Positions 2 to 53,761 of a stretch of DNA of 64,000 nt are shown here, piece by piece. The stretch's first letter is position 1. Each line of letters opens with the position of its first letter. A program made the position numbers and the translations under genes. Source of the stretch: Gammaproteobacteria bacterium (GTDB lineage Bacteria > Pseudomonadota > Gammaproteobacteria > Ga0077554 > Ga007554); contig JAKFXX010000006.1 in assembly GCA_021731145.1 (NCBI GenBank), positions 62,001 to 126,000 on the forward strand, read 5' to 3'. A model generated the notes under the pieces. That model did no database searches and had not been told where the DNA came from. It worked only from the letters and a program-made list of their open reading frames with translations.

Positions 2-2038
2 CGCCAGGACATCCAGATTCACTACGTGCCTCTGGAGGACACCCCTGCGGCGATGCGTCGCCTGGCCGACGCCGGGCTGACCACGCGCGAGGCCTGCGGC
101 AATACCGTGCGCAACATCACCGCCTGCCCGCTTGCGGGGGTGTGCCCGCGTGAACATCTCGACATCACGCCGCTGATGGAAGGGACGGTTACGCACTTCC
201 TGCGTCATCCGCTGACACAGCATCTGCCACGCAAGTTCAAAATGAGCTTCTCCGGCTGCGAGGCCGATTGCGCGCAGGGCATGATGCACGATCTGGGCGC
301 GGTGGCGGTCAAGAAGGACGGGCGTTATGGCTTCAAGATCGTGGCGGGCGGCGGGCTGGGCCACAAGCCGCACGAGGCGATTACGGTTGAAGAGTTCATC
401 GAGGAGCAAGACCTGCTGCCCAGCATCGAGGCTATCGTCTCCCTGCACCACCGCTATTCCGACCGCAAACGCCGCGCCAAGGCGCGCATCAAATTCCTGG
501 TGGATAAGTTTGGCGCGCAAGGTTTTGTCGAAAAATACAAAGAGGAATTTGCCCGCACCAAGGCGGCCCTCGCGGACAAACCCCGCCCCGCCGGTGTGTG
601 GACAGGCGGTACGCCGGGTGTAGCCTGCGGCATGGGTGCGCCGCGCCATGTGTTCGCGCAAAAACAGTCCGGCTTGCACGTATTCCCGGTCAGTATTCCC
701 ATCGGTGACATCACCGGCCCGCAGATGCGCGGCATCGTCAAGCTGATGGAAGACCAAGGCTTGCAGGAAATGCGCGTCACCCAGGATCAAAACCTGATGC
801 TGCTCAATGTGCCCGAGACCGCCATCCCGTCAATTCGCGCCGGGATTGAAGCGTTGGGTCTGGGCGAACCCAAGGCCGGTGACGATGTTGTCGCCTGCCC
901 CGGCACCTCCACCTGCCGCCTGGGTATCACCTCCAGCAAGATCATCGGCACCAAGATCTCCGGCGGGACCGCCGATCTGCGCATCCGCGCCAGCGGTTGC
1001 CATAACGGCTGCGCGCAGCCCGAGACCGGCGACATCGGCATCTACGGCGAGGGCAACCGCCTGCATGGCAAGCTGGTGCCGCACTACCAGATGTACTTCG
1101 GCGGCGATGGCCGTAGCGCAGGCGGGCTGGCCCTCAAAGGCCCTTCCGTGCCCGCCGCACGCATCGAGGCTGCGGTTACACGCGTAGAGGAGACCTACAC
1201 CAAGGATCGTAATGAAGGCGAAACCTTCTTCCACTGGGCGCACCGCCACGGTAAGGAATACTTTACGGCGCTGCTGCAAGATCTCGTCAAGGTCGCGCCC
1301 GAGGAATTGTCTTCCGTGCTCCACGATCACGGTGAGGCCAATGACTTCAAAGTGCTGCAACTCGGTGGTGGTGAGTGCGCCGGTGCAGCACAGGAGTTCG
1401 TCGCCTCACACTTTGCCGAGGCAACCTACGAGCGCGATTGCCGCAATTCCTTTGCCTCCCAGCACAAATACCTGGACGCACTGGAGTGCAGCGAAGCGAT
1501 AGGCCGTCTGATCGGCGAGTCATTGCTGTTCTCTTCAGGGCGCGCAGCCGTACCCGGATTGCCCGCAATCGCTGCGGTGTTGCAGGAGTCGTTGCAGCAG
1601 GACGCCCACCTGGGTGCCAAGCTGGCGGAAATGGCCAGCAGCATCGCGCAATTGAAAGACACCTTCGATGAACAGGGATACGCCAGGCTGGTGGCGGATC
1701 AGGATACCTGGATCGCGCAATCCGCCCAGGCCTGCCAAGGCCTTGACCGCCAGCTTAACCTGACCGTCTCCATCACCGCACCTGCGGCGAAGGCCAAAAT
1801 CGCCGAAGTCATAGACTTGTCCACCTACGGTTGCCCGCTGCACTACCTCAAGGCACGCAACGCGCTGAATGCCGTGCAGATAGGCGATGTGGTGGATTTT
1901 CTGCTGGAATCCGGTGAATCCACCCAGCAGGTAGCCTCCAGCCTGGAAGGCGATGGGCACCGCGTGCTCTACAAAGAGGAGCGCGGCACGACAACGCGCA
2001 TCACGGTGAAAAAAGCCGCCGCCGCGCAGCCACACTAA
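2..2038 (+). CDS. Sulfite/nitrite reductase hemoprotein fused to a C-terminal TusA-like domain (5' partial)
   Basis: The frame is open from base 2, so the true start lies upstream of the window. The protein is a siroheme and [4Fe-4S] assimilatory reductase converting sulfite to sulfide with reduced ferredoxin or a similar donor. In the visible fragment a Cys-x5-Cys at about residues 299/305 and a Cys-x3-Cys at 333/337 form the usual cluster/siroheme ligand set. A second, similar set occurs in the N-terminal half (C42-x5-C48, C86-x3-C90). The last ~70 residues form a TusA-like sulfur-carrier domain with YGCPLHYLKA (Cys near 611). cysH follows 23 bp downstream, which supports sulfite rather than nitrite as substrate. 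The ferredoxin-type assignment rests on the family pattern. Confidence is high for the enzyme class and moderate for the substrate. Confidence 0.9.
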   Translation, partial: RQDIQIHYVPLEDTPAAMRRLADAGLTTREACGNTVRNITACPLAGVCPREHLDITPLMEGTVTHFLRHPLTQHLPRKFKMSFSGCEADCAQGMMHDLGAVAVKKDGRYGFKIVAGGGLGHKPHEAITVEEFIEEQDLLPSIEAIVSLHHRYSDRKRRAKARIKFLVDKFGAQGFVEKYKEEFARTKAALADKPRPAGVWTGGTPGVACGMGAPRHVFAQKQSGLHVFPVSIPIGDITGPQMRGIVKLMEDQGLQEMRVTQDQNLMLLNVPETAIPSIRAGIEALGLGEPKAGDDVVACPGTSTCRLGITSSKIIGTKISGGTADLRIRASGCHNGCAQPETGDIGIYGEGNRLHGKLVPHYQMYFGGDGRSAGGLALKGPSVPAARIEAAVTRVEETYTKDRNEGETFFHWAHRHGKEYFTALLQDLVKVAPEELSSVLHDHGEANDFKVLQLGGGECAGAAQEFVASHFAEATYERDCRNSFASQHKYLDALECSEAIGRLIGESLLFSSGRAAVPGLPAIAAVLQESLQQDAHLGAKLAEMASSIAQLKDTFDEQGYARLVADQDTWIAQSAQACQGLDRQLNLTVSITAPAAKAKIAEVIDLSTYGCPLHYLKARNALNAVQIGDVVDFLLESGESTQQVASSLEGDGHRVLYKEERGTTTRITVKKAAAAQPH

Positions 2039-7459: not shown

Positions 7460-8311
7460 ATGAGTCCATTGACGGATTTGCGTATGAAGCGTTGTGTGAT
7501 GGCACTTTCATTGGTGTTGTCCGGCGTGATAGTTGTGCCCCAGGTTCACGCGGCTCAGGACGGCGCGGGGACTGTGACAGGTGAAGAAGTCGTAAAAAAC
7601 TGTGATTTCAAAAACCCCGGCAATGATCAGCGCTCAAAGTTGGCGATTGTTCTCAAGGATAGCTCGGGAAGTGAAAGAAAAAATGTCTATCTCCGGTTAT
7701 GGAAGGATTACAAGGGGGCCGAGGGCGTCGCAGATAAAATGATCCTCTTCACGGAATATCCGCCGGATGCCCAGGGCGCGGCCTTTATGCGTTGGGCATT
7801 TACCCGTGAGGCGGACAAGAATGCTGATCAGTGGATTTATCTGCCGGCATTGAGAAAGATACGGCGGGTTTCAATCAGGGATCCGGGCGATAGCTTTTTG
7901 GGGTCGGATTTGACGTATGCCGATATCAGCGGCAGGGCATGGGATGAGGATGAGCACAAGCTGATCCGGATCGAACCCGCCAGCAATAACGAGTTTTATG
8001 TGGTGGAGAGTACACCAAAGGAAAAGAACCCGCTGTACAGCAAGCGACTATCCTGGTTCCTGAAGACGCCTAGTTGGGATGGTTGCATCAAGGCGCGAGT
8101 TGATTATTACGACAAAAGGGGCGATTTGCTGAAAAGGCAAAATTTGCGCTGGCAAAAAGTGGGGTCGGCATGGGTGTGGGATAAAGTGGTTGTTCAGAAT
8201 GTACAAACCCTGCACTCATCCCTGTTTGAGGTTACCAACGTGGAGATTAATGTTGGTCTGCAGGATAGCCTTTTTGCTGAAAGGACGTTGGAAAAAGGGT
8301 ATAGCAAGTAG
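7460..8311 (+). CDS. LolA-like outer-membrane lipoprotein-sorting family protein (first copy)
   Basis: This is a periplasmic protein of 283 residues with an N-terminal signal peptide (ending near HAAQ). The body contains the family pattern of aromatic beta strands: RLWKDYKGAEGVADKMILF, then QWIYLPALRKIRRVS and FLGSDLTYADI. This matches the LolA-like (outer membrane lipoprotein-sorting) family often encoded next to MMPL/RND transporters, where it is thought to carry a lipid-like ligand through the periplasm. The ATG has GGAG 6-7 bp upstream. A TTGACA at 7289 may belong to its promoter, but the -10 is weak. A paralogue lies at 21732-22571. The ligand is unknown. Confidence 0.8.
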   Translation: MSPLTDLRMKRCVMALSLVLSGVIVVPQVHAAQDGAGTVTGEEVVKNCDFKNPGNDQRSKLAIVLKDSSGSERKNVYLRLWKDYKGAEGVADKMILFTEYPPDAQGAAFMRWAFTREADKNADQWIYLPALRKIRRVSIRDPGDSFLGSDLTYADISGRAWDEDEHKLIRIEPASNNEFYVVESTPKEKNPLYSKRLSWFLKTPSWDGCIKARVDYYDKRGDLLKRQNLRWQKVGSAWVWDKVVVQNVQTLHSSLFEVTNVEINVGLQDSLFAERTLEKGYSK

Positions 8312-8382
8312 GCAAATTCCCGCTGCATGTTCTGCGGCGAGCGGCGGCGAGGGAGTGCTTAAATAATTGTACCTAGTGGGTA

Positions 8383-44177: not shown

Positions 44178-44219
44178 GTTTCGTACACAGGGGGGCTAGC
44201 CGCCCCCTGTGTGCGAAAC
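44178..44219. repeat. 17-bp inverted repeat upstream of hsdM
   Basis: GTTTCGTACACAGGGGG pairs with CCCCCTGTGTGCGAAAC (16 of 17) around 8 bases, 20 bp after the small secreted gene. It could terminate that gene, although no T-run follows. The rest of the 280-bp gap up to hsdM holds nothing recognised. Confidence 0.6.
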
Positions 44220-44436
44220 GAGTGTGCATTGCCATCTCCACGAAGGTCTGTATCCCGCTTTTGCAGCAGATTCGACTCTAAGCCCGGCAGGCTGCCAGGC
44301 CCATTGGACAAATATCAGAAGGATGGAAGTGCTGGTGCTGGGCTATGCCAAGGCACATGGCCTCACGCCTGACGACGAAACAGCCGCCTTGGTCCCGTCC
44401 AGGTTGGCAAGAATAAAAACAGGAATACCCACGCAC

Positions 44437-46230
44437 ATGAATCAACCCGCCCTCTCCGCCTTCATCTGGTCGGTTGCCGACCTGCTGCGCGGCGACTACA
44501 AGCAATCCGAATACGGCAAGGTTATCCTGCCCTTCACCGTGCTGCGTCGCCTGGACTGCGTGCTGGAAACCACCAAGCCTGCTGTGCTCACCGAATATGC
44601 CAAACAACAAAAAGCCGGGCTGAAACCTGAGCTGTTCCTATTGCGTAAAGCGGGCCAGCGCTTCTATAACACCTCGCCGATGGACATGAAAAAGCTCATG
44701 GGCGACCAGGATCACATCAAGGAAAACCTCTACGCCTACATCCAGGCGTTTTCGCCAGCGGTGCGGGATATTTTTGAACGCTTCGACTTCTACACCCAGA
44801 TCGAGCGCCTGACCAAATCCGGGTTGCTGTACCAGGTCACCGAGCGTTTCGCCCATGTCGATCTGCACCCGGAGGTTGTCAGCAATGCCCAGATGGGCCT
44901 GGTGTTCGAAGAGCTGATCCGCAAGTTTGCCGAGATCTCCAACGAGACCGCCGGGGAGCACTTCACCCCGCGCGAAGTCATCCGCCTGATGGTCAATCTG
45001 CTGTTCATTGAAGACGACGACGTGCTGGCCAAGCCGGGCGTGGTGCGTACCATCTACGACCCTACGGCAGGCACCGGCGGCATGTTGTCGGGGGCGGGGG
45101 AATACCTGGAAGAGCACAACCCGCAGGCGCGCCTCACCATGTTCGGCCAGGAACTCAACGATGAGTCCTACGCCATCTGCAAGGCCGACATGCTCATCAA
45201 GGGCCAGGACGTGGCCAACATCACGGCGGGCAACACCCTGTCGGACGATGGCCACCCGCACAAGAAATTCGATTACATGCTCTCCAACCCGCCCTTTGGC
45301 GTGGAGTGGAAAAAGGTCGAAAAAGAGATCCGCAAGGAACACGAGCAACAGGGCTTCAATGGCCGCTTTGGCCCCGGCCTGCCGCGCGTTTCGGATGGCT
45401 CGCTGCTGTTTCTGCTCCACCTCATCAGCAAGATGCGTCCGGCAGTTGATGGCGGCAGCCGCTTCGGCATCGTGCTCAACGGCTCACCGCTATTCACCGG
45501 CGGCGCGGGCAGCGGCGAAAGCGAAATCCGCCGCTATGTGCTGGAGAATGATCTGGTGGAAGCCATCATCGGCCTGCCCACCGACATGTTCTACAACACC
45601 GGCATCAGCACCTACATCTGGATACTCTCCAACCGCAAACCCGAACACCGCAAGGGGCTGATACAGCTCATCGACGCATCCGCCTTCTGGCAGAAGATGC
45701 GCAAGAGTCTGGGCAGCAAGCGCAAGGAAATGAGCGATGAACACATCGCTGAAGTGACGCGCCTGTTTGGCGATTTTCAGGAGGCGAGCGTAGGTCGGGC
45801 TTCAGCCCGACAAAATGAAAGTCGGGATGAGTCCCGACCTACAACCGAGGTTCCGATCTCGCGCATCTTCAAGAATGAAGAGTTTGGCTACCGCACTATT
45901 ACCGTGGAGCGCCCGCTGCGTGATGCGGCAGGCAAGATTTTGCTGGGCGAAAAAGGCAAGCAAAAGGGCAAGCCTCAGCCGGACAGCAGCCTGCGTGATA
46001 CCGAGAACGTGCCACTTTCGGAAGACGTGGAAAGCTACTTCAAGCGCGAAGTCCTACCCCATGCGTCCGATGCCTGGATCGACCACGACAAGACCAAGGT
46101 CGGTTACGAGATCCCTTTCAACCGCCATTTCTATGTCTTCAAGCCACCGCGCCCGTTGGTGGAGATTGATTCTGACTTGAAGCAATGCACCGACCGGATT
46201 CTGGACATGATTGCGGGCCTGACGAAATGA
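44437..46230 (+). CDS. hsdM: Type I restriction-modification methyltransferase subunit
   Basis: HsdM is the N6-adenine methylation subunit. It has 597 residues with motif [10 protein letters not shown] and motif IV NPPFG, plus the N-terminal HsdM domain ([20 protein letters not shown]). ATG 44437 is preferred; the frame extends upstream, but that leader lacks family similarity. At residues ~452-469 the sequence [18 protein letters not shown] is encoded by a 53-bp REP pair inserted in frame between FGDFQEA and [16 protein letters not shown], which are adjacent or nearly so in relatives. The insert sits in the C-terminal region, outside the catalytic core. The stop overlaps a following ATG (ATGA). 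Confidence 0.95.
45790..45842. repeat. REP pair (BIME) inside hsdM
   Basis: Two stem-loops face each other: GTAGGTCGGGCTTCAGCCCGAC and, inverted, GTCGGGA-TGAG-TCCCGACCTAC. Each carries the GTAG/CTAC tetranucleotide at its outer end. The same family occurs at 47373-47438, 49968-50007, 50468-50522 and inside the 127-bp repeats. The hsdM frame runs straight through it. Confidence 0.92.
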
Positions 46231-46582: not shown

Positions 46583-46741
46583 ATGCAAATCACTGCTAGC
46601 CTGAATAAACAAATTCGCAAAGCTGTTCAAATCTCGATGCAGATCGAAGGTTACAAACCCTCGCAGACACCTGCAATCAAAGAGCAAGTCAAAGCACTCA
46701 TGGAGCAGCACCGTGTCCAAGTATCAGTTCAGCGCAAGTGA
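46583..46741 (+). CDS. Fic antitoxin (VbhA-like inhibitory peptide)
   Basis: This is a 52-residue protein, MQITASLNKQIRKAVQISM and onwards, ending VSVQRK. It contains S-M-Q-I-E-G at residues 19-24, matching the inhibitory (S/T)xxxE(G/N) helix motif of class I Fic antitoxins, whose Glu blocks ATP gamma-phosphate binding. AGGAG lies 9 bp before ATG 46583. It overlaps the fic gene by 29 bp. The motif and the gene order make the assignment likely despite the short length. Confidence 0.78.
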   Translation: MQITASLNKQIRKAVQISMQIEGYKPSQTPAIKEQVKALMEQHRVQVSVQRK

Positions 46742-47348
46742 CATCTGCCTGCCCGGCACGGACATTCCCAAAAATCGTTTGGGGATAACCGAGCCGGAGC
46801 TATTGCATGAGATCGAAGAAACCCTGTTGCAGCAGGCCTACCAAACCTTCATCGCCGAATGTGAATCCACCACCCGCTTCGACGAAATCTACTTCAAATC
46901 CTTACAACAGCGCACCTTTGAAACACTCTACGACTGGGCTGGTGTGTATCGCACAGTCGATATGAGCAAAGGTGGCTCGGTATTCTGTCGCGCCGCTTAT
47001 CTTGAGCAAGAATCCCGGCGCATCTTTCGCCAACTGGAAGAAGAAGGATTCTTAAAGCAAACCCAGGATGGGCAGCCAGAAAAGTTCGCCGAGCGACTGG
47101 CCCACTACCAATCCGAATTGATCGCCCTGCATCCCTTCTACGAACTCAACGGACGTATCACCCGCTTGTTCTTTGATTTGATCGCCGTTGCCAACGGCTA
47201 CGCTCCTATTGATTACAGCAACGCATTGCTGGGACAACCCATGAATGCCTATATACAAGCCTCCATCGCCTGTGTGCAACAAGCTGATAGCAGCATGCTG
47301 CACCAGATTATCTCGCAAGGGCTGAGCAAACTGGATGCAACAGCATGA
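46713..47348 (+). CDS. fic: Fic-family AMP-transferase (toxin)
   Basis: Fic enzymes transfer AMP from ATP to a Tyr, Ser or Thr of a target protein. It has 211 residues with motif HPFYELNGRITR from His140. The catalytic His, Asn and Arg residues are intact, but the first Gly of the usual HPFx(D/E)GNGR is Leu. The start is GTG 46713, inside the antitoxin gene, so translation is coupled. The TGA stop overlaps the next ATG. Fic genes are commonly found inside type I R-M operons; the target here is unknown. Confidence 0.9.
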   Translation: MSKYQFSASDICLPGTDIPKNRLGITEPELLHEIEETLLQQAYQTFIAECESTTRFDEIYFKSLQQRTFETLYDWAGVYRTVDMSKGGSVFCRAAYLEQESRRIFRQLEEEGFLKQTQDGQPEKFAERLAHYQSELIALHPFYELNGRITRLFFDLIAVANGYAPIDYSNALLGQPMNAYIQASIACVQQADSSMLHQIISQGLSKLDATA

Positions 47349-47461
47349 GTTTGCCGCGTTATCCGAATATGCATAGGTCGGGATTCATCCCGACAATTTT
47401 CGATATACGCGCCGATGTCGGGATGAATCCCGACCTACAAAACCGTGAGGTGCGCGCATGA
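47345..47461 (+). CDS. 38-codon relay ORF linking fic to hsdS
   Basis: The ATG overlaps the fic stop (ATGA) and the TGA overlaps the hsdS ATG (ATGA). The first eight codons (MSLPRYPN) nearly duplicate the hsdS start (MSLPRYPE), and the remainder is encoded by a REP pair and its linker. It looks like the original hsdS start, cut off by a repeat insertion that duplicated about 25 bp. The product probably has no function beyond carrying ribosomes to hsdS. Whether it is translated is inferred. Confidence 0.6.
   Translation: MSLPRYPNMHRSGFIPTIFDIRADVGMNPDLQNREVRA
47373..47438. repeat. REP pair between fic and hsdS
   Basis: TAGGTCGGGATTCATCCCGAC and its inverted partner GTCGGGATGAATCCCGACCTAC are separated by about 22 bp. 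The left tetranucleotide is ATAG, the right one intact (CTAC). It belongs to the same family as the hsdM insert. Confidence 0.9.
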
Positions 47462-48747
47462 GCTTGCCGCGTTATCCTGAATACAAAGCTAGCGGCGTGG
47501 AATGGCTGGGCGAGGTGCCGGGGCATTGGGATATGAAGCGGCTCAAACATAACTTACGGCTACTGACCGAGAAAACTGACCGACGAGAGCACCCGGTTGC
47601 TTTGGAAAACATCGAAAGCTGGTCAGGTCGTTTCATTGAGACCGACAGCGAGTTTGAGGGTGAAGGTGTTGCATTTGAGCGCGGTGACATCTTATTTGGG
47701 AAGTTGCGTCCTTACCTTGCAAAGGCGTACTTGGCCGAGACTGCCGGGGAGGCGGTAGGGGATTTTCACGTCATGCGTCCAGGGACGAACATTAATGGGC
47801 GATTCGCGCAGTACCAGATTTTGAATCGGGAATTTATCACTATCGTTGACAGTTCAACCTTTGGTGCAAAAATGCCCCGCGTCGGCTGGGACTTTCTTGG
47901 CAATATGCTCTTGGCAGCACCACCCATCCCCGAACAAAAAACCATCGCCGCCTTCCTCGACCGCGAGACGGGGAAGATTGATGCCTTGATGGCCGAGCAG
48001 CAGCGACTGATTGCGTTGCTGGCGGAAAAGCGCCAGGCGGTGATTTCGCACGCCGTCACCAAGGGGCTGAACCCGGATGTGCCGATGAAGGATTCCGGCA
48101 TCGAATGGCTGGGCGGAGTGCCGGGGCATTGGGAGGTTGCTCCGCTAGGATACTTGGTAATGTTGATTCAGACAGGCCCGTTTGGTAGTCAGCTTCATTC
48201 GGAAGACTATGTAGAAGGTGAAACACCTGTAATCAATCCATCCAACATTCAAGACGGAAAGCTAGTGGCGGATTGGTCATGCACTGTTACACAAGAAATT
48301 GTTGCTCGCCTTTCACAGCACAAATTGATGTTTGGCGATATCGTATTTGGCAGACGCGGTGAGATGGGTCGTTGTGCGATGGTTACAGTAAACGAGGTTG
48401 ATTGGTTGTGTGGAACCGGTAGTTTGAATGTACGGCTTTCCAGCCGGGCAATCCCAGAATTCGTTTCAATATATCTGAGAACAGCATATGTTCGGGAGTT
48501 TCTAAAGCTGGAATCTGTTGGCTCCACGATGGATAACCTGAATACGCAAATACTATCCTGTGTTCCAGTGCCTTTGCCGCCTCTCGTGGAACAACAAGCT
48601 ATTGCCACCTTTCTTGATAACGAAACTACCAAGTTCGACGCCCTCACCGCCGAGGCCAACCGCGCCATCACCTTGCTGCAAGAGCGGCGTAGTGCGCTGA
48701 TTTCGGCAACTGTGACAGGGAAAGTTGATGTAAGGACATTTGCCTGA
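47458..48747 (+). CDS. hsdS: Type I restriction-modification specificity subunit
   Basis: HsdS recognises the bipartite DNA target and holds HsdM and HsdR. It has 429 residues with two target-recognition domains and two conserved spacer regions. The repeated openings SGVEWLGEVPGHWDMKRL and SGIEWLGGVPGHWEVAPL mark the halves, and IPEQKTIAAFLDRETGKIDA and LVEQQAIATFLDNETTKFDA mark the central and C-terminal helices. The two recognition domains differ, so the target should be asymmetric. The start overlaps the relay ORF stop. Confidence 0.95.
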   Translation: MSLPRYPEYKASGVEWLGEVPGHWDMKRLKHNLRLLTEKTDRREHPVALENIESWSGRFIETDSEFEGEGVAFERGDILFGKLRPYLAKAYLAETAGEAVGDFHVMRPGTNINGRFAQYQILNREFITIVDSSTFGAKMPRVGWDFLGNMLLAAPPIPEQKTIAAFLDRETGKIDALMAEQQRLIALLAEKRQAVISHAVTKGLNPDVPMKDSGIEWLGGVPGHWEVAPLGYLVMLIQTGPFGSQLHSEDYVEGETPVINPSNIQDGKLVADWSCTVTQEIVARLSQHKLMFGDIVFGRRGEMGRCAMVTVNEVDWLCGTGSLNVRLSSRAIPEFVSIYLRTAYVREFLKLESVGSTMDNLNTQILSCVPVPLPPLVEQQAIATFLDNETTKFDALTAEANRAITLLQERRSALISATVTGKVDVRTFA

Positions 48748-48748
48748 C

Positions 48749-49867
48749 ATGGATATTTCAAAGCTGACTAGTGTAGCAAGTTTGCCATCCTCAATATCTG
48801 AGGTAATGAAGCAGTCTATGAATTTTGAGCGGCAAGTGTCCCAGTTTATGAATTCATCTGCTTTGCTTGCTAGCCAATTTGGAGTCGCATCACAACTTGC
48901 CAAGGAGATGACGGATCAGTCCGGCCATTGGAAAAGATTCACCGAGCCATTGTCTCAAATCAGAGAATCTATGTTGTTTTCCGATCAAGTCGCCAAGGCA
49001 ATGGCTTCATCTTCACTAGGTTGGCAAAATACGGCTCGTGAGCTGGCGGAATCTTTGTCCTTTTCCTCATCAGCCATGCGAATGTCGGATGAAATCAGCA
49101 AGCAGATGATGGGAATCTCGGCCTTGCATCTCGAACGATTCGCAGAAATCACTAAGCCATACCAAGGGCTGTTGGATTCAATAGCTTCTGGATCGTTTGC
49201 TGCAAAAGCCGCCAGAGAAATGGCAGTGCAGCATAATTGGGCGCGGCATATTCAACTTCCAGTTATTGATAGCGCAGCCGCTAATGCTATTGCGGCGATA
49301 TGGGGGCGAGAAGGAGTCGAAAGACAACTCAAATCCTTTGGCGTTGAATATCAGCAGCTCTTCGACGACATTGAGACTACGACAGAAAGAACACAAAGCT
49401 CATCACAATTCAAAATTCCTACAATCGATTTTTGGACTGTATTTAACATCCTGCTTGCGATTTTGTTGTTTCTATACCAAGTTCGGGATTCAGCCCAGAT
49501 GGAAAGCCGACTTGTTTCCGAAATCCAGCTTTCAAGGAATGATGTACAAAACGGTACGCATCTTATCGAGCAGTTACTACAGACTCTGATTGAGTCGAAA
49601 CAGCCGAATGAAGAGGGAAAAATCCAGTTCGTTGTTCGTTCCAGAGTGGCGACAATACGCACCTCTCCACGCGCAGGCTCGACAGCTATTGCTGAGATTT
49701 TTCCGAACCAGGTGGTTACGTTGCTAGATGAGGATGGAAAGTGGATTGAAGTCGAATACTTCGATTGGCTAAAACAAGAGATGCGAACTGGCTGGGTATT
49801 AAAGAAATATTTAGTGCGAGTGCCTTCGGTTCGACCGTATTCGAACAATGAGGTGGGCGATGAGTAA
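48749..49867 (+). CDS. Membrane-anchored protein with SH3-like domain, in the R-M operon
   Basis: This is 372 residues. Residues 1-220 are helical and rich in Ser/Met/Gln (MKQSMNFERQVSQFMNSS), resembling a coiled or adhesin-like stalk. One membrane segment (TVFNILLAILLFLYQV) lies near 229-244. A coiled segment follows, then a bacterial SH3 domain at ~294-356 (VATIRTSPRAGSTAIAEIFP). The start is 1 bp after the hsdS stop and the end overlaps the next ATG by 8 bp, so it is an integral member of the operon. Codon use is less GC-rich than hsdM and hsdR. No named family; a defence accessory is possible. Confidence 0.7.
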   Translation: MDISKLTSVASLPSSISEVMKQSMNFERQVSQFMNSSALLASQFGVASQLAKEMTDQSGHWKRFTEPLSQIRESMLFSDQVAKAMASSSLGWQNTARELAESLSFSSSAMRMSDEISKQMMGISALHLERFAEITKPYQGLLDSIASGSFAAKAAREMAVQHNWARHIQLPVIDSAAANAIAAIWGREGVERQLKSFGVEYQQLFDDIETTTERTQSSSQFKIPTIDFWTVFNILLAILLFLYQVRDSAQMESRLVSEIQLSRNDVQNGTHLIEQLLQTLIESKQPNEEGKIQFVVRSRVATIRTSPRAGSTAIAEIFPNQVVTLLDEDGKWIEVEYFDWLKQEMRTGWVLKKYLVRVPSVRPYSNNEVGDE

Positions 49868-50021
49868 TCTGCACAAGGAAATCAACTTCGAAACAGAAAT
49901 CTACGGCTACACGATAGATGAGAACTGCACGCGGCTGCTGTTGGGGCAAGATCGATGTACGCTATGTGTAGGTCAGGCTTTAGTTTGTCGGGTTGAAACC
50001 CGACCTACGGGGATGTTATGA
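49860..50021 (+). pseudogene. hsdR-like 5' remnant running into a REP pair
   Basis: A 53-codon frame starts MSNLHKEINFETEIYG, which matches the HsdR start MSLHKEISFESEICD, then loses similarity. It passes through a REP pair and ends in TGA overlapping the ATG of the RAYT gene. The base-level match to hsdR (50570) is only moderate, so it may come from a diverged allele rather than a fresh duplication. It overlaps the preceding gene by 8 bp, as an intact hsdR would. Confidence 0.6.
49968..50007. repeat. REP pair upstream of the RAYT gene
   Basis: GTAGGTCAGGCTTTAGTTTG is an eroded left REP. GTCGGGTTGAAACCCGACCTAC is an intact inverted right REP ending 10 bp before the transposase ATG. Flanking a RAYT gene with REPs is the usual arrangement. 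Confidence 0.85.
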
Positions 50022-50464
50022 CATACAACGATCTGCGCAAAGGCCGTGTTTCACAATCAGGTTTGGTGTACCACATTACGACGGTGACGCAGAACCGGGC
50101 ACCTCTTTTTGCTTCGCTTGATAACGGGCGCAAGGTGGTGCGGGAGTTGGTGACATTGCAAGCTGAAGGTAGGGCAGAGACGCTTTGCTATGTGGTGATG
50201 CCGGATCATTTGCATTGGCTGATGGTGCTGCAAGCTGGCAAGTTATCCGAGGCAGTTCGGATGTTGAAGGGGCGTTCGGCGCACGCGATTGGGCGGGCGG
50301 TTTGGCAGGCAAATTATTTCGATCATGCAGTACGGAAAGATGAGGATTTTCGGAGGATGGCGCGGTACATTGTGGCGAATCCATTGCGGGCAAATTTGGT
50401 TGAACGGATTGGCGATTATTCGTTGTGGGACGCGGTTTGGTTGGATGAGGCGTTGTCGGGATAA
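50018..50464 (+). CDS. REP-associated tyrosine transposase (RAYT, Y1 HUH family)
   Basis: This is a 148-residue IS200/IS605-like single-strand transposase. VVMPDHLHWLMVL contains the HUH motif (His-Leu-His), and the C-terminal part RRMARYIVANPLRANLVERI is the conserved RAYT helix with the WQANYFDHAVR segment before it. RAYTs recognise GTAG/GGAG-headed REP hairpins and are usually single-copy, domesticated genes. It lies between REP pairs and inside the R-M operon, between the unknown membrane gene and hsdR. The catalytic Tyr is expected in the C-terminal helix (the RYIV tyrosine). Confidence 0.93.
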   Translation: MTYNDLRKGRVSQSGLVYHITTVTQNRAPLFASLDNGRKVVRELVTLQAEGRAETLCYVVMPDHLHWLMVLQAGKLSEAVRMLKGRSAHAIGRAVWQANYFDHAVRKDEDFRRMARYIVANPLRANLVERIGDYSLWDAVWLDEALSG

Positions 50465-50467
50465 TTG

Positions 50468-50522
50468 GTAGGTCGGGTTTTAACCCGACATGTCAGGAAA
50501 GTCGGGTTAAAACCCGACCTAC
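50468..50522. repeat. REP pair downstream of the RAYT gene
   Basis: GTAGGTCGGGTTTTAACCCGAC, spacer ATGTCAGGAAA, and the inverted GTCGGGTTAAAACCCGAC-CTAC. This is the most perfect member of the family in the window. It lies just before hsdR. Confidence 0.93.
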
Positions 50523-50569: not shown

Positions 50570-53500
50570 ATGAGCCTGCACAAAGAGATCAGCTTTGAAA
50601 GCGAAATCTGCGACACCCTGGCCGCGCAGGGCTGGCTGTATGCCGAGGGCGATGCCGCCCGGTATGACCGCGCCCGCGCCCTGTTTCCGGTGGATGTGCT
50701 GGCCTGGATACAGGAAACCCAGCCCAAGGCCTGGGAGACGTTGACCAAGAACCACGGCGCCCAGGCGGAGGCCGTGTTGCTAGACCGCCTGCGCAAGTCG
50801 CTGGATGACCGTGGCACGCTGGATGTGCTGCGCCATGGGGTGGAGCTGCTGGGGTTGCGCCAGCCGCTGGCTTTGGCCCAGTTCAAACCGGCCCTGGCGA
50901 TGAACCCGGAGACGCTGGCCAAGCATGCCGCCAACCGGCTGCGCGTGGTGAGGCAGGTGCGCTACTCGCTGCACAACGAGAATTGCATCGACCTGGTGCT
51001 GTTCCTCAACGGCCTGCCGGTGGCCACCGTGGAACTCAAGAGCGATTTCACCCAGTCGGTGGAGGATGCGGTGGATCAGTACCGCTTCGACCGTCACCCC
51101 CGCCCAAAAGGGCAATCCGCCAGCGAGCCGCTGTTGAGCTTCCCCAATGGTGCGTTGGTGCATTTTGCAGTGAGCAATAGGGAAGTGCGCATGACCACTC
51201 GGCTGGAGGGGGCGAGCACTACATTCCTGCCTTTTAACCGGGGCGACAACGGCGCGGCGGGGAACCCGCCCTCTCCCGACCTTCGGTCACCCTTTCCCAC
51301 GAGTGGGAGAGGGGTTGGGGGAGAGGGCGGCCACCGCACCGCCTACTTGTGGGAAGACGTGTGGGCACGGGAAGGCTGGCTGGAGATTCTGGGGCGCTAT
51401 CTGGTGGTCAGCCGTGACAGCAAGAAGCAGATCACCAGGATCATCTTCCCGCGCTTTCACCAGCTCGATGCCACGCGCAAGCTGCTGGCGGCGGTGCTGG
51501 AAGAGGGGCCGGGCGGCAAGTACCTGATCCAGCATTCGGCGGGATCGGGCAAGACTAACTCCATTGCCTGGTCGGCGCACTTTCTGGCCGATCTGCACAG
51601 CGCCGATCACAAGAAGGTGTTCGATTCGGTGCTGGTGGTGTCCGACCGCACGGTGCTGGATGCGCAGTTACAGGAGGCCATCTTCGACTTTGAGCGCACG
51701 GCGGGCGTAGTGGCCACCATTACCGGCGAGGGCGCCAGTAAGAGCGAGGAGTTGGCCAAGGCGCTGTCCGGCGGCAAGAAGATCGTGGTGTGTACCATTC
51801 AGACCTTCCCGTTTGCGCTGCAAGCGGTACAGGAGCTGGCGGCCACCCAGGGTAAACGCTTTGCAGTGATTGCCGACGAGGCGCATTCGTCGCAGACCGG
51901 CGCGGCTGCCGCCAAGTTGAAGGCGGTGCTGAGTGCAGAAGAACTTCAGGAATTGAACGACGGCGGTGAGGTCTCCACCGAAGACTTGCTGGCGGCGCAG
52001 ATGGTGGCGCGTTCAGCGGAGAGTGGCATCACCTACGTGGCTTTTACCGCCACCCCCAAGGCCAAGACGCTGGAGCTGTTTGGCCGCCGCCCTGACCCTG
52101 CCCAGCCCGCCAGCGCAAACAATCTGCCCGCGCCGTTTCATGTTTATTCCATGCGTCAGGCCATCGAGGAGGGCTTCATCCTCGACGTGCTGCAAAACTA
52201 CACGCCGTACAAGACTGCTTTCAAACTGGCCCATAATGGGGCCGAGTACGACCCCCGATCGGAGCCGGGGGCAGGCGAAAAAGCGGTGGCGCGTAGCGAG
52301 GCGTTGAAGGGGATCATGCGTTGGGTAAAGCTGCACCCCTACAATATCAGCCAGAAAGTGCAGGTGGTGGTGGAGCACTTCCGCGACAACGTCGCCCTGC
52401 TGTTGAATGGCCGCGCCAAGGCGATGGTGGTGGTGTCGAGTCGCGTGGAGGCAGTGCGCTGGAAGCTGGCAATTGAAAAATATATTCAATCGCAGGATTA
52501 CAGGATCAGCACGCTGGTGGCCTTCTCCGGCGAGGTGCATGACCCGGAATCAGGCCCGGATGGTTTCACCGAAACCAGTCAGACCTTAAACCCAAACCTG
52601 CGTGGCCGTGACATTCGCAAAGCCTTCGGCACTGACGAATATCAAATCCTGTTAGTGGCCAACAAATTCCAGACCGGTTTCGACCAGCCCTTGCTGTGCG
52701 GCATGTACGTGGACAAGCGCCTGGCGGGTATTCAGGCCGTGCAGACGCTGTCGCGCCTGAACCGCGCCTATCCGGGTAAGGACACCACCTATGTGGTGGA
52801 TTTCGTCAACGATCCAGATGAAGTATTGGCGGCGTTCAAGACCTATCACGCCACGGCGACACTGGAAAATGTCACCGACCCGAATCTGGTGTATGACCTG
52901 CGTGCCAAGCTGGATGCGGCGGGATTTTACGACGACTTCGAGGTGGAGCGTGTGGTGACCGTGGAGTTGAATCCAAACGCCAGGCAAAGCGACCTGACCG
53001 ACGCGCTGGAGCCGGTGGTGGATCGACTGCTGAAACGCTACAAGGCGGCGCAGGAGCGGTTGACCGCCGCCAAGGCGAAAAAAGATGACAAGGCGGCGGA
53101 TGATGCGAAAAACGAATTGAATGCGTTGGTGCTGTTTAAAGGTGATATGGGCGCCTTCCAGCGCATGTATACCTTCCTGTCGCAGATTTTTGACTATGGC
53201 AACACCGCCATCGAAAAGCGCTATATCTTCTATAGGCGCCTAATGCCGCTGCTGGAGTTTGGCCGTGAGCGCGAGGGTGTTGATCTTTCCAAGGTGATCC
53301 TGACGCATCACACCCTGAAGAATCAGGGCAAACGGCCACTGCCTCTGGTCGATGGCGAATATCCGAAGCTCGAACCCTTCACGGCGGCGGGCAGTGGCAT
53401 GGTGCGGGAAAAGGAGCGGGCGTATCTGGCTGAAATAATCGCCAAGGTAAACGACCTCTTCGAAGGCGAACTGACTGACGACGACCGCTTGGTGTATGTG

Positions 53501-53761
53501 AACAACGTGCTGAAGGGCAAACTGCTGGAGTCGGATATCCTGGTGCAGCAGGCGGTGAGCAACACCAAGGAACAGTTTGCCAATTCGCCCGACCTCTCCA
53601 GCGAGATCATGAACGCCATCATGGATGCCCTTTCCGCGCATAGCACTATGAGCAAACAGGCGCTGGAATCGGAACGGGTGCGCAGTGGCCTGCGGGATGT
53701 GCTGCTGGGGCCGGCACGACTTTATGAGGCGCTACGGGAACGATCAGAAACGAGGCCGTGA
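50570..53761 (+). CDS. hsdR: Type I restriction-modification endonuclease subunit
   Basis: HsdR translocates DNA with ATP and cleaves at a distance. It has 1063 residues from ATG 50570 (AAGGA 8 bp upstream); the frame upstream runs through a REP pair and is not family-like. The nuclease motif VATVELKSD is near residue 150, Walker A SAGSGKTNS near 325 and the DEAH box VIADEAHSS follows, with the C-terminal helical domain complete. Residues ~233-254 come from a 65-bp palindromic repeat inserted in frame between FNRGDNGAAGNPP and GHRTAYLWEDVW. The catalytic and motor motifs are intact. Confidence 0.95.
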   Translation: MSLHKEISFESEICDTLAAQGWLYAEGDAARYDRARALFPVDVLAWIQETQPKAWETLTKNHGAQAEAVLLDRLRKSLDDRGTLDVLRHGVELLGLRQPLALAQFKPALAMNPETLAKHAANRLRVVRQVRYSLHNENCIDLVLFLNGLPVATVELKSDFTQSVEDAVDQYRFDRHPRPKGQSASEPLLSFPNGALVHFAVSNREVRMTTRLEGASTTFLPFNRGDNGAAGNPPSPDLRSPFPTSGRGVGGEGGHRTAYLWEDVWAREGWLEILGRYLVVSRDSKKQITRIIFPRFHQLDATRKLLAAVLEEGPGGKYLIQHSAGSGKTNSIAWSAHFLADLHSADHKKVFDSVLVVSDRTVLDAQLQEAIFDFERTAGVVATITGEGASKSEELAKALSGGKKIVVCTIQTFPFALQAVQELAATQGKRFAVIADEAHSSQTGAAAAKLKAVLSAEELQELNDGGEVSTEDLLAAQMVARSAESGITYVAFTATPKAKTLELFGRRPDPAQPASANNLPAPFHVYSMRQAIEEGFILDVLQNYTPYKTAFKLAHNGAEYDPRSEPGAGEKAVARSEALKGIMRWVKLHPYNISQKVQVVVEHFRDNVALLLNGRAKAMVVVSSRVEAVRWKLAIEKYIQSQDYRISTLVAFSGEVHDPESGPDGFTETSQTLNPNLRGRDIRKAFGTDEYQILLVANKFQTGFDQPLLCGMYVDKRLAGIQAVQTLSRLNRAYPGKDTTYVVDFVNDPDEVLAAFKTYHATATLENVTDPNLVYDLRAKLDAAGFYDDFEVERVVTVELNPNARQSDLTDALEPVVDRLLKRYKAAQERLTAAKAKKDDKAADDAKNELNALVLFKGDMGAFQRMYTFLSQIFDYGNTAIEKRYIFYRRLMPLLEFGREREGVDLSKVILTHHTLKNQGKRPLPLVDGEYPKLEPFTAAGSGMVREKERAYLAEIIAKVNDLFEGELTDDDRLVYVNNVLKGKLLESDILVQQAVSNTKEQFANSPDLSSEIMNAIMDALSAHSTMSKQALESERVRSGLRDVLLGPARLYEALRERSETRP
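51266..51330. repeat. 65-bp palindromic repeat inside hsdR
   Basis: The ends are exact 12-bp inverted repeats (CCGCCCTCTCCC and GGGAGAGGGCGG). An inner hairpin TCCCAC...GTGGGA lies near the right side. The element encodes about 22 Pro/Gly/Ser/Arg-rich residues in the hsdR frame. It is unrelated to the GTAG REP family and resembles the CCCTCTCCC/GGGAGAGGG repeats scattered in many proteobacterial genomes. Confidence 0.88.

Follow-up and report, generated by a model that had tools for sequence, protein, structure and literature searches.

The DarTG2 toxin-antitoxin pair of E. coli is described as sitting exactly between hsdS and hsdR (PMC12255303), and TgvAB of V. cholerae, a GmrSD-like pair, as lying inside a type I cluster and protecting without HsdR activity (PMC11411939). 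In Pseudomonas, the Shield core protein ShdA is reported to be membrane-bound and embedded in DISARM-like and type I restriction-modification (R-M) operons (PMC10270631, PMC11090510). Zorya is described as an inner-membrane system in which ZorB binds peptidoglycan and ZorA has a long cytoplasmic helical part; mutation of the wall-contacting domain of ZorB is reported to abolish defence (PMC11890865).

Here we describe X, a gene in a type I operon of a gammaproteobacterial genome, found in a window of 64,000 nucleotides (the whole stretch of DNA that was analysed). As those reports present their systems, X lies at the same kind of site in type I operons as DarTG2 and TgvAB but, unlike either pair, encodes a lone membrane protein lacking any known enzyme domain. 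It resembles ShdA in its single membrane anchor, long helical region and several restriction-type host operons. ShdA is described as anchored at its N-terminus and carrying an RmuC nuclease domain in the cytoplasm, whereas the helix of X lies past mid-chain and is followed by a C-terminal SH3 domain; RmuC had no Pfam match in window X and was not among the families listed (25 of 27) for 13 members of the X family. An initial automated reading of the window (the first-pass annotation) had considered a membrane protein unprecedented in type I operons, a view that the reports on ShdA overturn (PMC11090510, PMC10270631). Like PrrC as described in ecoprrI (PMC12707154), X is an accessory carried within a type I operon; unlike PrrC, a tRNA nuclease, it has no such domain, and the ATPase and anticodon nuclease domains of PrrC/RloC had no match in X in Pfam, PADLOC or NCBIfam. 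If the SH3 domain of X is outside, it would be a wall-contacting domain like that reported for ZorB, although X differs from Zorya in having one membrane helix and an SH3 domain in place of the ZorB wall-binding domain. A weak PADLOC match to ZorA (E 9.2e-5), in one of 13 members and not in window X, may only reflect long helices, and a MotA/ExbB-type channel domain was absent from window X (Pfam) and from the families listed for the 13 members. TIGR04211 combines SH3 and an anchor by name, as X does, but X scores 12.3 bits against its cut-off of 65.

Results

Architecture of X and its operon

As shown in Table 1, the operon runs hsdM, Fic, hsdS, X, RAYT, hsdR. In an alignment, the N-terminus of hsdM as called extends beyond those of its relatives, and the start of the intact hsdR was picked by comparison with the 5' ends of homologues. 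The Fic gene (46713-47348) was missed in the first-pass annotation. That annotation correctly placed X (48749-49867) 1 bp after hsdS, whose stop is at 48747. It also had X locked against hsdR by an 8-bp overlap, but the partner in that overlap is a 53-codon open reading frame (ORF) and the intact hsdR begins at 50570, 702 bp beyond the end of X. The lock against hsdR thus fails in the window, and the placement in the operon stands for the family, since X abuts full-length hsdR directly in three relatives (L044, L045 and L079).

Table 1. Features of the hsd operon and of the X protein, with nucleotide positions counted along the window.
Feature	Position	Strand	Basis
hsdM (type I methyltransferase subunit)	44209..46230	+	Pfam N6_Mtase E 1.1e-60, HsdM_N E 1.4e-26; PADLOC MTase_I
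Fic-domain protein, cargo between hsdM and hsdS	46713..47348	+	Pfam Fic E 9.3e-13; PADLOC PDC-S04 E 5e-50
hsdS (specificity subunit)	47458..48747	+	Pfam Methylase_S E 4.5e-19; PADLOC Specificity_I E 1.7e-124
X (membrane-SH3 gene)	48749..49867	+	ATG start, 372 aa
X, N-terminal helical region	residues 1-165		
X, conserved motif	residues about 166-202		
X, membrane helix	residues about 223-246		
X, helical stalk	residues about 247-283		
X, SH3_3	residues about 293-360		
53-codon ORF, hsdR-like start	49860..50021	+	comparison of 5' ends
REP-like inverted repeat, upstream of RAYT gene	49967..50008	.	sequence; core repeat by pattern
RAYT (REP-associated tyrosine transposase) gene	50018..50464	+	NCBIfam REP_Tyr_transpos E 1e-39; Pfam Y1_Tnp E 3e-8
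REP-like inverted repeats, downstream of RAYT gene	50468..50522	.	sequence; core repeat by pattern
Intact hsdR (restriction subunit)	50570..53761	+	Pfam HSDR_N E 1.9e-16, SWI2_SNF2, T1R_D3-like

The protein features proposed at first pass were borne out. Residues 1-120 are rich in Ser (21.7%) and Met (8.3%), residues 223-246 form the single hydrophobic segment, and SH3_3 (PF08239) matches residues 301-355 with a Pfam E of 4.2e-7 and 30.5 bits, above the curated cut-off of 27. AlphaFold confidence was 81-88 in the SH3 domain and below 50 over most of the remainder, and the modelled SH3 part resembles solved SH3 structures. Both structure models were poor except in the SH3 domain and stalk, and we therefore claim no fold for the N-terminal region. 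Profile matches of X to solved structures were weak, looked like chance helix matches and were set aside.

Identity between X and its Gallionella copy was 63/79/42% at codon positions 1/2/3, our sole measure of selection because dS was not computable. This pattern indicates that the protein is under selection, and X is not a chance ORF because it is conserved in other genomes and codon positions 1 and 2 are more identical than position 3. No enzyme domain was found in window X with Pfam, PADLOC or NCBIfam, and no known killing domain in the 13 family members scanned. SH3 models were the only ones to recur convincingly among these 13, all of which matched SH3_3 at E up to 1; PADLOC holds no model for window X. 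Lysine and arginine were more numerous upstream than downstream of the helix in six of 13 members, equal in six including the window, and fewer in one (L054 was left out of this count, its helix having been misplaced by the script). This charge bias is weak, and tied in window X; with uncertainty, we favour an arrangement with the N-terminus inside and the SH3 domain outside.

A family of membrane-SH3 proteins

The single X sequence matched nothing in our genome contigs or viral contigs. A profile of its membrane-SH3 half found 20 loci in the genome contigs, 13 of which (L044-L056) were counted as members. Five loci (L057-L061) were excluded for having only the membrane-SH3 end in common, and two (L062, L063) as other proteins with SH3. 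The same scan of the viral contigs gave one weak match, which was left unused, and phage records held no match to X. Among plasmids, X matched only one Azospirillum TM-SH3 protein; a remote relative of X also matched an SH3-only protein. The family alignment had four matches in 399 genomes of one order, and only G758 (L079) was new; G936 and G776 correspond to L056 and L054 and were counted once each. A weak match in G146 was dropped because it fell within a 905-aa ORF resembling another protein. The family therefore totals 15: the window, L044-L056 and L079. Further matches were not counted; those viewed were a repeat-rich TM-SH3 protein (L065) and an unrelated SH3 protein (L067).

X thus founds a real and conserved membrane-SH3 family, apparently undescribed so far. 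No SH3 membrane protein in such operons came up in the literature searched, including term look-ups in the available text of PMC12839542, PMC9122601, PMC13092281, PMC9519451 and PMC11090510; the term 'sh3' was absent from the text searched of PMC12839542, a survey from 2026 that covers accessory genes of BREX. The gene can decay: in L045 the family-aligned reading frame meets an in-frame stop close to its start, and the L055 copy is truncated.

The wider TM-SH3 architecture also occurs near abortive-infection genes. Two genomes carry closely alike short TM-SH3 proteins of 275 aa, one (L040, 4384-5211, - strand) adjoining an Abi_C gene and the other (L059, 5834-6661, + strand) near an AbiEi-AbiEii pair. 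The remote protein in L065 (1498-2616, - strand) has an N-terminal part made of near-identical repeats (PKFMERQLATSKMMSEM), and its gene adjoins that of a 308-aa protein, membrane-bound by eye.

Members share a plan of variable N-terminal helical region, conserved pre-membrane motif, membrane helix, stalk and C-terminal SH3. In an alignment of 13 members (L055 and L079 left out), the motif residues L170, P171, D174, A178, A182, G186, G189, Q193 and G198 (X numbering) were invariant, as were residues in the SH3 domain, where GKW and GWVLKKY are conserved stretches. Compared with the two other groups, the type I group was 49-51% identical in SH3, 37-38% in the motif and 13-15% in the N-terminal 165 residues, as if one end kept a constant job while the other were fitted to a changing trigger or partner. 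A tree of 14 members (L055 left out) placed the four type I members in one clade (100/100) and the three BREX members in another (92/94); the third group comprised the GmrSD, type III, integrase-linked and orphan members. Between the window and L044/L045, identity was 46-54% for X, 82-87% for hsdM and 75-80% for hsdR.

Genomic contexts of the family

The family was found by sequence search, with context playing no part, and ten of its 15 members adjoin restriction-type genes: four type I, three BREX, one type III and two GmrSD. A rough binomial test gave 3e-14 for this count under an assumed base rate of 2%. X lies between hsdS and hsdR in the window, L044 (Gallionella), L045 (Nitrosomonas communis) and L079, and after mod-res of a type III R-M system in L048 (Limnobacter). 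The BREX members read brxC-pglX-X-OLD/TOPRIM-DUF2130-Fic-pglZ-brxL in L050 (the DUF2130 gene being named provisionally), X-AlbA-pglZ-brxL in L056 and X-pglX in L053, a 3.5-kb contig in which pglX is the sole basis for assigning BREX. X precedes GmrSD in L047 and follows it in L051, about 22 bases apart in each; the two GmrSD proteins are 75% identical, and their occurrence near X in reversed orders is as would be expected of a functional pair.

The next same-strand gene begins about 12-85 bp after X in L044, L045, L047, L048, L050 and L053, and overlaps it in L079. The X family therefore occurs repeatedly inside or beside type I, type III, BREX and GmrSD systems, sharing their orientation and tightly spaced. 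Five members have no adjoining restriction gene. Of these, L046 has an integrase nearby, by eye; L052 has a 676-aa ORF beside X and an integrase further off; L054 has integrase, kinase and VWA genes with GmrSD about 5 kb away; the truncated X of L055 accompanies Tn7-type TniB/TniQ genes and HNH. In L049, X is on its own in a row of chromosomal genes that includes no defence genes, among neighbours that are presumably lptD, surA and rsmA. The co-occurrence check proposed at first pass thus speaks in its favour, with ten of 15 members adjoining R-M, BREX or GmrSD genes. In a genome sample searched from the hsdR side, 31 genomes carry a close hsdR and one of them has X.

The hsdS-hsdR junction is a cargo slot

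That sample comprised 399 genomes of one order, searched at E ≤ 1e-200 for hsdR and E ≤ 1e-15 for X, and the one genome with X was G758. X does not belong to the type I core, since 30 of the 31 close-hsdR genomes lack it. The initial suggestion of a built-in type I partner is not supported, given this count and the other genes that hold the slot. For 20 of the 32 hsdR matches we inspected the upstream DNA. The hsdS-hsdR gap was at most 181 bp in four (L118, L127, L128, L129) and 390-2023 bp in 15, and hsdS was not found in one stretch (L122). Ten gap ORFs from nine loci were scanned with Pfam: GmrSD (L113), DUF4268/NucS_C (L115) and DUF4357 with a weak GIY-YIG (L117) were matched and the other seven had no match; the gap ORFs of L116 and L126 were L117-like by eye. 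X was beside hsdR in none of another 20 stretches: 16 held an hsdR relative together with its upstream DNA, one had hsdR right where the contig begins, and three were weak X matches. Given the varied gap genes and the hsdR stretches without X, the hsdS-hsdR junction is a cargo slot with X as one occupant.

Membrane cargo may be common there: ORFs that show hydrophobic stretches by eye and match no Pfam family occupy the slot in L112 (348-713), L120 (261-1076) and L123 (301-993), all on the - strand. The hsdM-hsdS junction, which holds RhuM in L044 and L112 and Fic in the window, looks like a second cargo slot.

A probable second hsdR start and a REP-RAYT element

The 53-codon ORF (ATG at 49860) that X overlaps by 8 bp begins with 14 residues resembling an hsdR start (MSNLHKEINFETEI) and then diverges; its stop, TGA at 50019-50021, overlaps the RAYT start. 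Its first 43 bases match the Gallionella hsdR start at 35 positions, slightly closer than the intact hsdR start of the window does, and the sequence beyond them had no convincing match among the collected loci. From this comparison, the ORF is probably the remnant of a second hsdR 5' end. The two hsdR-like starts of the window differ (33 matches in 46 aligned columns); this is not a simple target duplication. Our inference is that the DNA upstream of the resident hsdR received a cassette whose end carried a donor hsdR start, and that the REP-RAYT element arrived as well.

Of the eight sites in the genome that match the REP core with at most two mismatches, five lie within the window hsd operon, where REP sites occur at 45790, 47370-47445, 49967-50008 and 50468-50522. 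One of these five is inside hsdM, at an in-frame insertion of some 17 codons that L044 and L045 lack. On a second contig of the same genome (L033), a second type I operon contains a RAYT-related gene (7904-8374, 31% identical) and, also between hsdS and hsdR, a 557-aa ORF that is AlbA-like by eye.

Discussion

With our confidence evenly divided, we read X from its sequence and neighbours as a candidate embedded accessory defence protein that would add a second layer of its own at the inner membrane. This reading is favoured by the ten of 15 members adjoining R-M, BREX or GmrSD genes, by the GmrSD pair accompanying X in both orders (L047, L051), by the type I (100/100) and BREX (92/94) clades, by an SH3 domain kept while the N-terminal region diverges between groups, and by the precedents of DarTG2, TgvAB, PrrC and ShdA. 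Against it stand the five of 15 members without a restriction neighbour, the in-frame stop of L045 and truncation of L055, and a barely supported topology with structure models that are poor outside the SH3 domain and stalk. X is probably a movable add-on defence part and not a fixed piece of the restriction enzyme. It would be co-expressed with its host restriction-type system and act as a separate second layer at the inner membrane. The helical region would be cytoplasmic and respond to a trigger, either failed restriction or infection, and the SH3 domain on its stalk would be periplasmic and touch peptidoglycan or a wall protein; the X assembly could then stop phage production by disturbing the membrane or by blocking DNA entry or release. 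Action as a membrane or scaffold protein is likelier than action as a nuclease because no enzyme motif was found in X, and X may work without a partner, since the L049 copy stands alone with no defence genes around it. The first-pass annotation gave a good hint, and the separate effector that it offered as an alternative is, as a prediction, the best fit; yet two of its supports fail, namely the overlap with hsdR and the lack of precedent.

Some of the same evidence would suit a tether or coupling subunit, with the variable N-terminus binding the co-encoded restriction or BREX complex and keeping it at the inner membrane, the entry site of phage DNA, and the SH3 domain fixed to the wall: X clades follow their host systems, the N-terminal region diverges between systems while SH3 is kept, and X abuts hsdR in L044, L045 and L079. 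We think this rather unlikely, as the 30 close-hsdR genomes without X imply that the type I enzyme can do without it, and one sub-clade mixes type III, GmrSD, integrase-linked and orphan members where a dedicated tether predicts otherwise. A guard of the PrrC/PARIS type would be silent under an intact complex, freed by a phage anti-restriction protein, and would kill or arrest the cell via the membrane. PrrC is reported to lie inside a type IC operon and to sense loss of EcoprrI (PMC12707154), X is found with several restriction-type systems, and the X of L050 adjoins an OLD-TOPRIM gene, of a kind described as a proposed BREX backup effector (PMC12839542). This role is unlikely for X, however, given that the 13 members scanned lack a known killing domain and that the orphan in L049 has nothing nearby to guard.

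X might also be a passive passenger, with a function unrelated to defence or restriction and a mobility that would land it in the often-recombining cargo slots of restriction operons. The hsdS-hsdR slot takes many unrelated genes, REP elements entered the window operon several times, two copies are damaged (L045 and L055), and integrase or Tn7-type genes are close to four of the five members that have no restriction neighbour (the L046 integrase by eye). Nevertheless, mere chance landing is distinctly improbable in view of the recurrence of X in four unrelated kinds of restriction system, its system-specific clades, the GmrSD pair in both orders and the selection on the protein.

The embedded accessory protein is thus our preferred reading, and X is a further case of defence genes embedded in other defence operons. 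A bolder proposal, which we hold to be quite doubtful, is that X is an envelope module: a wall-touching, membrane-spanning sensor with an exchangeable cytoplasmic arm that would tell type I, III and IV and BREX systems of a breach of the envelope by a phage and recruit or trigger them at that place. The usual picture of restriction and BREX is one of DNA surveillance in the cytoplasm. A family common to four unrelated DNA-modification or modification-sensing systems would point, beyond what the defence catalogue used here (PADLOC) contains, to an envelope-linked layer or a shared backup effector.
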